From positions 39,025,787 to 39,089,786 of the forward strand of contig OY720346.1 in the NCBI GenBank assembly GCA_963082975.1: a stretch of 64,000 nt of DNA, read 5' to 3'. Below, piece after piece: positions 30,141 through 64,000 of the stretch. The stretch's first letter is position 1. Every line of letters starts with the position of its first letter. The position numbers and the translations under genes were made by a program. The notes below the pieces were generated by a model, which did no database searches, was not told where the DNA came from, and worked only from the letters and a program-made list of their open reading frames with translations. The stretch comes from Labia minor. Lineage: Eukaryota > Arthropoda > Insecta > Dermaptera > Spongiphoridae.

Positions 30141-30744
30141 AACTTAAAAACATTTTTATTTATATCCAATATTTTTTTTTCTCAAAAAAATAAAATCATT
30201 TTATATTAAATAATTTATTTCATAATAATACAGTAATTATATAGATAAAAACTAAAGTACCTAGAGCTAGATATAAATAGGACTTTGTATTTTATTGATG
30301 TATATCGTGTAGTATAAAATAGAAACAGAACGAATCAATTTAATTTGATCCATAAAAAACAAACTTAGAACAACTGATCTAAAACAAATTTAAACAATAA
30401 ATGAAATGGATATTATTAGTGATATAATCATAATAATTATTAAGGCAGATACTGGCTAAATCTTTAATGCCAAAAACCATTAAAAAAAATTATAAATTCA
30501 AAAGGTAATTTTTTGTAAAAGTTCTTTGATGTTTTAAAATATATTTTTAGTCATGTAAATAATAAGTCTTTGATATCATGTAGGAATATAAATAAATATA
30601 TATATATATATATTTATATCCCTAAATATTGCAATTATATTATAAAAGAAAAAACAAAAAATATTTATATTGAAAGGCTATATATAAAATTAAAAATAAT
30701 TTATATATATATACTTTGTAATCTATCATTTGAGTTATAATTTT

Positions 30745-31141
30745 TACCGATCAAAGATTGGAAGGGAAGGTATTGTTTTCACACTAAATTTCACATGTGA
30801 AGTCTTTTACATATCTCCTCGAATTTTGCATTTTGTTAACAGAAAAAAGTATTTTTAGCATGATGTCTGTCCGTCTGTCCATTGTGTGTCCATGTACAGC
30901 TTGAACGGCTCAATGGATTTTGATAAAATTAGGTATATTTACTTAATGCATCAGTAGCATGAATTCATCAACTTTTGGTGTATATCCGGAAACTGGAAGT
31001 AGTAGTTTACAAATTATTAATTTTATATTCATTGTCGGATATTTTTTATTACATTAAACTAACTGGTGAAATAATATATATAATGTTTTTTTTTAATTAT
31101 TTTTAAATCGTCGGTCGGTTCTGTGCCTGGCCAAAGCTCAT
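30745..31141 (+). mobile_element. Degenerate third copy of the GTCCGTCT-type repeat unit
   Basis: It runs from TTTTTACCGATCAAAGATTG through TTTCACATGTGAAG, GTCTGTCCGTCTGTCC, CAGCTTGAACGGCTCAA and GGAAACTGGAAGTAGTAGT to CGTCGGTCGGTTCTGTGCC and TGGCCAAAGCTCA. It is shorter than the arms at 11945-13920: the GACGTCA segment is missing. It ends about 60 bp before the recursive-splice-like site. Confidence 0.8.
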
Positions 31142-31175
31142 TTTTTTTTTAATATGAAAATAAATATTTTATTTT

Positions 31176-31212
31176 AATGTTCTTGTATTTTTCTTTTGTT
31201 ACAGGTAAGAGT
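31176..31212 (+). promoter_or_regulatory. Candidate recursive-splicing (ratchet) site
   Basis: A nearly pure pyrimidine run at about 31180-31201 ends in ACAG (31201-31204) and is directly followed by GTAAGA (31205-31210). A strong 3' splice site fused to a strong 5' splice site, with no exon between, is the known form of ratchet points in long Drosophila introns. It is on the same strand as the brakeless exon and 19.5 kb upstream of it, in what appears to be a very long intron. Use of the site is inferred; only the motif is seen. Confidence 0.6.
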
Positions 31213-32643
31213 GCTGAAGAATGCTCAGTAATAGATCTTCGAGCCTACTTTTTTTTTCATTTTTTTTCTTTTATGAGTGAGCCCATCAGTGAGTTGCAAG
31301 TATTTTTTTTATTTCGTTATAAAGCCCTGTTTATGGCTTCATCAAAAATACAATTACCTTTCTGCTATGTAATAATCATCTAACTATCCTTCCATTTTGT
31401 TTTGTGTGGTATTTTTTCTATTAAAAAAATAATAATTTTCCAACGTTTTTTTTTTCTATTTTTATTTTATTTTATTTTTTTTTTTTAAATTAATAAATTT
31501 TTTATTTATACTACAAAACGATTTTATATAAATCTATTAATTTTTATACAGAAAATAATTATGAAAACAAAAACAAAAAATACAATAGTGCAAAACGTTT
31601 TCAAAACATACTAATTTTTTTTTAATTTAATAAAATTATTTTATCATTAAATTATTATACCAATTATTTACAATGGTTGATAATATAATGGAAAAAATCA
31701 AACATTCAATTCCCCCCTACCGGCTTCTTTGAAGAATTTTCTAATTTGAATGAGAAAATTATTTTTTTTTGTTAAATAATTTCAATTAAAAAAAATATTA
31801 CAAAATATTAAAATTAATTGATTATTAAACTAATCCATTTCATTATAATTGATTTTTTTTAAATTAACTAAAATCAAATATCTTCTTTCTTCATAAAAAC
31901 TTATTTACCATAAAAAAAATAATTTTGTAAATTTGTTAAAAAATTATATCATTTTTTTTTCTATAAAAAAAAATGAATGAATAACGTTTCCGTAAGGTTG
32001 AAAAAACTTGATTAATGTTTGTTTCGTTGGAAATCATTATTATTTTTTTTTTTTGTTATTCTGCTCTCATTTAACCGTCCCACCTGGATGTTAAATAACA
32101 CACCAAACACCCGTTATATTCTAATAGAAAGAACCTAAAACGATAAAAATTATAGTAATAAAAAAAAATCATTTAGAATAAACTTATTTTTGATTATAGC
32201 TACGGCTGTCACTAAAACATCAATCAATTATTCATTTTCGTTTGATAAATTTCCATCCCAATTTTCGATTAAATATTTGATAAACTTTTACTTTCTATCA
32301 TCCGTATTCATGTATAGCTTATTATAAAATTCTTTTGAAACTATTCATGAACTATTTATTTTCTGTTGAAAACTTCTAACCAATATCTCTGTCAGCTTGT
32401 TCAACCTCACCCATCCCCTCCCCTTCCATATTGACTTCATACCTTTTCACATTCTTATCACAAAGATTTCTTGGTTCCTGCTCAGTAAGCATTCACCACT
32501 TCTTGCTGTCTTAAGATTAGCATCTTTTTTTTCTTTTTTCATCCCCTATCACTTTTCGATTTAATTCTTTCGATGGTGCTTTGTCAAATCATTCTAGATT
32601 AGGTGAAAGAAACAATTCAATTTCTTCTTAGATGTTATATATA
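31213..32643. other. AT-rich sequence downstream of the ratchet-like site
   Basis: Mostly A/T. 32370-32560 is more complex (CCTCACCCATCCCCTCCCC near 32404). No clear exon: no acceptor/donor pair encloses a credible frame. Confidence 0.55.
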
Positions 32644-50675: not shown

Positions 50676-50799
50676 GACATGCTGGATGTATGCGTAGGAA
50701 CAAGTGTCGGTACCATTACGGAACCCGACTGTTTGGGACCTTGTGAACCCGGAACGAGTGTCACCCTGGAAGGCATCGTCTGGCATGAAACAGAAGGTG
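50676..50799 (+). CDS. sbb: Internal coding exon of brakeless/scribbler (ZNF608/ZNF609 family)
   Basis: Read in frame from the acceptor, the exon gives 41 codons starting [10 protein letters not shown] and containing CLGPCEPG followed by [15 protein letters not shown]. From memory of the family, this is the conserved N-terminal block of insect brakeless/scribbler and vertebrate ZNF608/ZNF609, nuclear zinc-finger co-regulators acting in transcriptional repression and neural and eye development. Seen: CTAAT at 50651-50655 is a possible branch point, then a T-rich tract and TTTCAG at 50670-50675. Two donors are possible. GTCAGT at 50800 ends the exon at 50799; GTGGTC at 50797 ends it at 50796; both leave phase 1. 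The first is preferred because it keeps the family's spacing HETE-x-G-V. The frame stays open to 50936 but becomes low-complexity after 50799, which fits intron. No C2H2 finger is present; it should lie in a later exon outside the window. The exon stands out from its flanks in GC content and codon-like composition. Confidence 0.88.
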
Positions 50800-62827: not shown

Positions 62828-64000
62828 CATAGGTTCTTAAACTTATGTACTCCACGGACCCCCACTTGAAAAAATTTTTTTTGACGGACCCCCATCACAA
62901 CTTTAGGTACTTTTCGTCATTTTATTAATTAATTTCTGGCTTACGATCTCATAAGGACAAGGATATATGATGAATATTTCTAACAGTGATTGGTGAATAA
63001 CGATTTTTTTGCATATTGTAGAACACATTTTATTAGAAATTATAATATTGAAGAAAGAAAATACAAACATTGTCATAGCAACAAATCTCACAAATTATAA
63101 TGGGTACTTACATTAAATTCATATAAATATTTTATAATTTTTTTCAGAAAATATTAAATAAGAAATATTTTAAAAAATAACTGCATCTATCTCATTAAAT
63201 ATAACTTACATATTTAATGAGATGTATGCAGTTGTTTTCTTGAAACAAGAATCTCAATATCTGGCTTAATATTGGAAACTTTTAATCTAAGATCCGGCTC
63301 TACATTTAATTTGTTTCTATATTTAGACTTAATATAAAATAGTACCGAAAAAGCTTGTTCGCATAAATATGTTGTGCAGAATGGAATCAAGTGTTGAAGT
63401 GCTTTATTTGCAAGCGCAGGATAATCTGACCTGAGAAGTAACCAAAAGTTGCTCAATTCAGTTTTGTTAAATTTTAGTTTATAAGTTGTATCACATGATA
63501 ATTCCACGAGAATATCTTGTTCAGGTGCAGATAAATGTTTAGCATTTGTAATTTCCATATTAAATGGATCTCTGATCCAGTTATTGCAAGGATCAGGAGT
63601 AGAAAAATACTTCCTGAAGTTGCTTTTCAAAGTAATTAAATGTTCAACAAATAATTGACGCGTTTGATTAAGCAATTTTTCACTGGAGCTTTCTATGAAA
63701 TCATTGAGAGTTGGAAAAGACTCATATACACCGTTCTGGATGCGTTTCGACCACAAGTCGATTTTTTTAATCATTGCTTCTATTTTATCTTCAACTTTAA
63801 ATATATTTACAACAGTACCTTGCAGGCTCAAATTAAGTTCGTTCAATTTTGTAAAAATATCAGTCAAGTAAGCCACCTTAGCTAACCAGATAAAATCATT
63901 GAAACATTCGGTCAGTTCAAAATGCGCATCTATTAAAAACAATCGTATTTCATCTCGAAGCTCAAAAAGGCGAATGAGTACTTTCCCGCGGGACAACCAA
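62828..64000 (-). mobile_element. hAT transposon, 3' portion (continues beyond the window)
   Basis: The element includes the transposase frame and about 390 bp of AT-rich 3' region. Its outer end at 62828 reads CATAGGTTCTTAAACTTATG followed by CTCCACGGACCCCC, close to the usual CAGTGGTTCTTAAAC...CGGACCCC terminus of ZBED5-like hAT elements. A second CGGACCCCC block follows at about 62885. The other terminus and the 8-bp target duplication lie outside the window. Confidence 0.75.
63214..64000 (-). CDS. hAT transposase, C-terminal part (ZBED5-like), truncated by window edge
   Basis: About 260 codons are open from the right edge to a stop at 63214. Just at the edge the protein reads WLSRGKVLIRLFELRDE, a block I recognise from ZBED5/GTF2IRD2-type hAT transposases. 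The visible part therefore starts inside the protein, and no start codon is present. Near the C-terminus is the hATC dimerisation region: FWLLLRSDYPALANKAL (about residues 184-200 of the visible part), then PFCTTYLCEQAFS (about 205-217), then RNKLNVEPDLRLKV. The Glu in CEQAFS lies where hAT enzymes have the last acidic residue of the catalytic triad (from memory). There is no stop or frameshift in the visible part, so the copy may be young. The C-terminal end KQLHTSH is typical of the family. Downstream (62828) lies a hAT-type terminal repeat. It is a transposon gene, not part of the host gene. Confidence 0.88.
   Translation of the reverse strand, partial: WLSRGKVLIRLFELRDEIRLFLIDAHFELTECFNDFIWLAKVAYLTDIFTKLNELNLSLQGTVVNIFKVEDKIEAMIKKIDLWSKRIQNGVYESFPTLNDFIESSSEKLLNQTRQLFVEHLITLKSNFRKYFSTPDPCNNWIRDPFNMEITNAKHLSAPEQDILVELSCDTTYKLKFNKTELSNFWLLLRSDYPALANKALQHLIPFCTTYLCEQAFSVLFYIKSKYRNKLNVEPDLRLKVSNIKPDIEILVSRKQLHTSH

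Follow-up and report, generated by a model that had tools for sequence, protein, structure and literature searches.

A scribbler/ZNF608-609-like gene of Labia minor with a probable ratchet point for recursive splicing in its 81-kb intron

Background

The closest described systems are the intronic ratchet points of Drosophila. In the excerpts of Joseph et al. (PMC8605326) on which we draw, fly ratchet points are recognised as cryptic exons of ~50 nt (RS-exons) that are 'generally out of frame' and have a donor of their own, which is outcompeted by the ratchet donor; for mammals the same excerpts describe expressed RS-exons in the thousands and no more than nine ratchet points with definitive suppression. 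Ratchet-point motifs (RP-sites) have also been counted in other animals, and the available portion of PMC2773006 reports that large introns are enriched in them relative to the complementary strand, 21.7-fold in the fruit fly, 8.0-fold in the beetle and 4.0-fold in the bee, with a density in the mosquito of 1.029 vs 0 per 100 kb for the same comparison, and little enrichment in mammals. The studies of recursive splicing at the RNA level that we found concern Drosophila and mammals; other insects are represented by motif enrichment. In the literature searched by insect name, part of it available as excerpts, we recognised no RNA-level ratchet-point study in a non-Drosophila insect, and such a study may exist; the text seen of PMC8553928 says of a bee exon that it is not a recursive substrate, and in that of PMC8797185 recursive splicing occurs only in the reference list. 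Within the literature searched, a set without Duff et al. 2015, nothing paired scribbler/sbb with recursive splicing.

Results

Host gene and intron

The window, that is the whole stretch of 64,000 nt that was analysed (C4:39025787-39089786), comes from a genome of 604 Mb in 71 contigs and was examined together with flanking sequence, 250 kb on its upstream and 20 kb on its downstream side. Negative coordinates run backwards along the contig from the first letter of the window, with C4:39025786 as coordinate 0. A coding exon on the + strand, which encodes ...NEWDIGIGDLIIDLDADIEK...SSHEAK, ends outside the window at -30466 with AAG|GTACAG, and the next coding exon on that strand (41 protein letters, single copy in the genome) lies at 50676-50796, where an end at 50796 or at 50799 fits the phase. 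The two exons fit each other in phase 0 and enclose an intron of 81,141 nt (-30465 to 50675) with a mean GC of 25%. Further downstream on the + strand follow an exon of 30 protein letters near 79533 and, from about 80045, a long exon with a C2H2-like finger. No further conserved exon was seen inside the intron among open frames of at least 90 codons, and short exons are possible.

By its conserved blocks the host gene looks like a member of the scribbler/ZNF608-609 family, and so presumably a developmental gene; an N-terminal block, a 29-letter block and a single C2H2 finger occur in order on one strand. Pfam gave no family for the host-gene pieces scanned, and neither a first exon nor a promoter was found among long open frames over 200 kb upstream or GC-rich windows over 250 kb upstream. 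Rfam at gathering scores returned no structured RNA, and ARAGORN (bacterial code) no tRNA.

Anatomy of the junction

Positions 31176-31212 read AATGTTCTTGTATTTTTCTTTTGTTACAG|GTAAGAGT on the + strand, and the junction can also be spelled TTGTATTTTTCTTTTGTTACAG|GTAAGAGT. An acceptor motif (pyrimidine tract, CAG) here adjoins a donor (GTRAG) directly, in sense orientation within a very long intron that separates coding exons of the + strand. The preliminary description had placed in a giant intron, on the gene's strand and 19.5 kb upstream of the exon, a pyrimidine tract that ends in ACAG at 31204 and is joined directly to GTAAGA at 31205. Each of these points holds: the sequence reads as described, the flanking coding exons are on the + strand, the intron between them has the length given above, and the distance to the exon start at 50676 measures 19,471 nt, which puts the site at 76.0% of the intron. 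To that description the present analysis adds the upstream exon, which lay outside the sequence it was based on, a possible cryptic exon downstream, sister sites upstream and the transposon end 65 nt upstream.

The junction AG occupies 31203-31204 and the GT 31205-31206. Upstream on the + strand, a TTAAT at 31174-31178 may serve, by its sequence, as the branch site, with its A at 31177, 27 nt 5' of the last base of the AG; it is followed by a T-rich polypyrimidine tract at 31179-31200, recognised by its pyrimidine count (14 of 19 positions in 31185-31203), and by the acceptor core ACAG at 31201-31204. The previous AG lies at 31135-31136, with none between. The ratchet donor GTAAGA (31205-31210, + strand) is one base away from the optimum GTAAGT, and after a first splice it would stand as AAG|GTAAGA, a rebuilt donor of 10.4 bits, whereas the donor AAG|GTACAG with which the intron itself starts scores 5.0 bits.

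An interspersed repeat with at least 41 other matches in the genome occupies about 30496-31139 (its start is approximate) and ends 65 nt upstream of the junction, as context outside the ratchet point. An origin of the site inside this transposon was considered and rejected, because the alignments of the seven copies compared end before the junction and none of these copies carries AG|GTAAG. Strict alignments of these seven copies stop at 31149-31178, in AT-rich tails; under looser scoring one copy (L004) aligns to 31200, as does a genome match at C4:37763303-37763604, and both stop before the junction. A search of the genome with 31150-31330 returned the query itself and one 49-nt match of 86% at C6:29212872-29212920. 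That match covers window 31159-31208, with tract and junction, and represents a repeat or else a further ratchet site. The region also holds near-identical open frames of up to 628 codons at 63217-63999 (- strand), -100701 to -98818 (+ strand) and -196080 to -194197 (- strand), which look like an intact or recent transposase, presumably of hAT type.

Local score of the site

Scoring was done with approximate insect splice matrices, used without training on this genome. At 17.6 bits the site at 31205 ranks first among the intron's 125 sense AG|GT junctions; of its 150 antisense junctions the highest-scoring one reaches 14.0 bits. One rival explanation is that, in an intron rich in A and T, a T-rich stretch ends by chance in CAG|GTAAG and is not used. 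Order-3 Markov sequences (1,561 simulations) give 0.088 expected sites of at least 17.5 bits in the intron, about 9 in 100, and sites of at least 17 bits across 334 kb, of which the sense strand has 5, also turn up in the antisense (1), reversed (2) and complemented (2) sequences, the simulated mean being 0.71 and the maximum 4; both figures leave room for chance.

When a donor of at least 6 bits was additionally required at +30 to +99, the 334 kb held 4 sense sites (-149309, -103233, -75100 and 31205), none in the antisense or reversed sequence and 1 in the complemented one, against a simulated mean of 0.127 and maximum of 2 (1,561 simulations; Poisson P(>=4) about 1e-5, for thresholds of 17 and 6 bits that were chosen after the sites had been seen). 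An earlier order-2 run over 284 kb with 60 simulations had given a mean of 0.083 and a maximum of 1. At a looser cut, at least 13 bits with a donor of at least 7, there were 4 sense sites and 1 antisense site for a simulated mean of 0.77 and maximum of 5; the local excess thus depends on the cut, because it shrinks as the thresholds are relaxed. Taken alone, the local score evidence is moderate: suggestive, and short of proof.

Genome-wide motif class

The site's own motif class was defined by the pattern TTTTNTTTTNTTNCAGGTAAG, which has 94 matches in the 604 Mb, 31205 among them; these are raw pattern matches in which any repeats or tandem duplications are counted with the rest. The reversed pattern matched 3 times, the pattern with its donor scrambled to GATAG once, and the pattern with its AG swapped to GA not at all. 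With 94 matches vs 0-3 in the controls, most members of the class cannot be chance.

Adjacent class matches also tend to share a strand. They did so in 10 of 10 pairs spaced 2-200 kb apart, 13 of 15 at 2-400 kb and 13 of 17 at 2-600 kb, and when 48 of the 50 cryptic-exon matches described below were added, in 20/20, 29/31 and 30/37 pairs over the same three ranges; at a spacing of 1-4 Mb only 14 of 45 pairs in the combined set lay on the same strand. Such coherence among near neighbours is expected of sites inside shared giant genes. Judged from these patterns in the genome sequence, the motif class and its strand coherence point to selection for ratchet points across the genome, and this genome-wide evidence is much stronger than the local evidence. 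Four class matches lie on one strand within 0.5 Mb at C5:18048125-18552583 (+), perhaps in one gene with giant introns.

The rejection of a chance origin rests mainly on these genome-wide controls, since local scoring alone leaves chance open; with the size of the class and the shared strand of near neighbours taken into account, we consider chance unlikely. The same controls bear on another reading, in which GTAAGA, strong in its intron half, works as a donor only, at the end of an alternative first exon that starts from a promoter just upstream. What lies upstream, however, is the transposon copy and 65 nt of T-rich sequence without AG, an acceptor-like layout, and the class requires its AG (0 vs 94 matches), so that we give donor-only use hardly any credence. 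The ratchet-point reading put forward in the preliminary description, in turn, gains support from the 81-kb intron, the correct strand, the genome-wide motif class and the strand coherence.

Cryptic exons downstream of ratchet points

The combined architecture of a ratchet point and a cryptic exon was searched for as TTTTNYAGGTRAG plus a downstream GTAAGT placed so as to give an exon of 46-66 nt. This pattern has 50 matches genome-wide and 14 when reversed, compared with 3 (reversed 4) when the AG was swapped, 1 (reversed 1) when the exon start was scrambled and 9 (reversed 5) when the downstream donor was scrambled. At a spacing of 71-91 nt there were 14 matches and 10 reversed, which is little or no enrichment. 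The fall from 50 matches to 1 on scrambling the exon start indicates that selection acts on the GT with which the exon begins. Exon lengths concentrate at 46-51 nt (26 of the 50 matches) and are spread over the three phases as 17/17/16. The downstream donor has a G at -1 in 7 of the 50, about the genome background, and it follows that only the intron half of the cryptic-exon donor appears to be selected. By these counts, this genome does have the architecture of ratchet point plus cryptic exon. Among the cryptic-exon matches, two pairs (C4:6095461/6115700 and C6:6919847/6941279) are near-identical, with members ~20 kb apart, and look like tandem duplications.

At 31205 itself, two downstream donors could close a cryptic exon on the + strand. 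The first, TCA|GTGAGT at +84 (31289-31294, 6.3 bits), would give a candidate RS-exon of 84 nt at 31205-31288 with an in-frame stop after 8 codons; the other, TGA|GTGAGC at +72 (31277-31282, 5.2 bits), would give, if this nearer donor were used, one of 72 nt at 31205-31276. Both are weaker than the rebuilt ratchet donor of 10.4 bits. Exon-like GC after the junction was rejected as a sign of this exon: the first 44 nt 3' of the junction have a GC of 43%, which 11.4% of intron windows reach and which is not beyond chance. Its length falls outside the enriched class of 46-66 nt, either length is divisible by three, unlike the generally out-of-frame RS-exons of the fly (although a stop is present), and the GC is unremarkable, so that we treat the cryptic exon at 31205 as a candidate.

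Downstream donors at +72 and +84 are also what an ordinary cassette or poison exon would have, one that starts with GTAAGA, uses a downstream donor and is included in some mRNAs; the stops inside are those of a poison exon, and fly genes such as Ubx express some RS-exons according to the excerpted text of PMC8605326. The donor TCA|GTGAGT is nevertheless outscored by the ratchet donor (6.3 vs 10.4 bits), and genome-wide the short exons all but vanish once their start is scrambled (1 vs 50), which makes an ordinary cassette or poison exon very improbable to us.

Other ratchet-like sites along the locus

The three remaining sites with both halves are strong ratchet sites on the + strand at -149309 (C4:38876477), -103233 (C4:38922553) and -75100 (C4:38950686), each with a downstream GTAAGT, at +54, +60 and +54 respectively. 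All three precede the first coding exon that was identified, by 43-118 kb, and they probably belong to a 5' intron of the host gene. A fifth sense site of at least 17 bits, at -202939, is without a good downstream donor.

A weaker ratchet-like site on the + strand, GTTTCAG|GTTGGT at -806 (C4:39024980), has GAT|GTAAGT at +50 and stands at 36.6% of the 81-kb intron; in fly introns with two ratchet sites the first is near 33%, according to the part of PMC6110457 available. If -806 and 31205 were both used, the intron would leave in pieces of 29.7, 32.0 and 19.5 kb. Because its first donor is poor, the site at -806 could alternatively mark a frame-shifting cassette exon of 50 nt. At window 12585 and again at -15762, the intron has on its sense strand an identical stretch of 25 nt surrounding an AG|GT, probably a repeat copy.

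Discussion

The junction at 31204/31205 is, with high probability, a genuine and working ratchet point in the 81-kb intron of a scribbler/ZNF608-609-like gene. In the mechanism that we propose, the upstream exon ending in AAG (...GAAGCTAAG) would first be spliced to 31205 (GTAAGAGTGCTG), and the joining of AAG to GTAAGA would rebuild a strong donor. This rebuilt donor would then be spliced to the exon at 50676, with the last 19.5 kb leaving separately, and the mRNA would keep no trace of the recursive step. The site would probably be recognised first through the short candidate cryptic exon of 84 or 72 nt, which has a weaker donor of its own; inclusion of that exon would bring an in-frame stop, and it would normally be discarded as the ratchet donor wins.

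A wider reading combines three things: that a series of recursive steps (-149309, -103233, -75100, the weak -806, and 31205) removes the entire giant gene; that a genome-wide code of recognising and then discarding, with cryptic-exon donors that have a strong intron half and a background-level exon half, operates in an AT-rich genome other than that of D. melanogaster; and that the site at 31205 persisted despite a transposon landing 65 nt upstream. We offer this joint claim tentatively, as a possibility about which we have more doubt than confidence.

The sequence evidence suggests that an architecture of ratchet point plus cryptic exon, at a spacing of about 50 nt, is used genome-wide, and about 140 listed sites are now open to a check by total RNA-seq. 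A class of lesion is also predicted: were the GT at 31205 lost, a developmental regulator should acquire an exon that contains a stop.

In vertebrate RS-exons, as Sibley and colleagues reportedly described them in 2015, a donor at the start of the exon competes with the exon's own donor, and the candidate exon here would resemble them in being a short exon with a donor at its start set against its own. The site is most like the intronic ratchet points of Drosophila, which in the parts of PMC8605326 and PMC6110457 available undergo zero-nucleotide recursive splicing and involve cryptic RS-exons (Ubx, kuz, Bx), and have acceptor and donor juxtaposed around AG|GT in the same way. It shares with them the gene's strand, a position deep in a very long intron of what appears to be a developmental gene, a donor about 50 nt downstream (here as a genome-wide feature) and a ratchet donor stronger than the downstream one. 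It differs from them in belonging to another, AT-rich genome, in being known from its sequence, in having a candidate cryptic exon of 84 or 72 nt, a multiple of three, and in the repeat that ends 65 nt upstream. The RP-sites of mosquito, honey bee, beetle and sea urchin, in the available portion of PMC2773006, show the same sense-strand excess in large introns outside Drosophila; there the RP motif is scored alone, whereas here the spacing of the cryptic-exon donor and strand coherence were tested too. Going by that portion, enrichment in other insects and in sea urchin is already published, and what the present sequence comparison adds is a candidate series along a whole locus and genome-wide evidence on cryptic-exon spacing.
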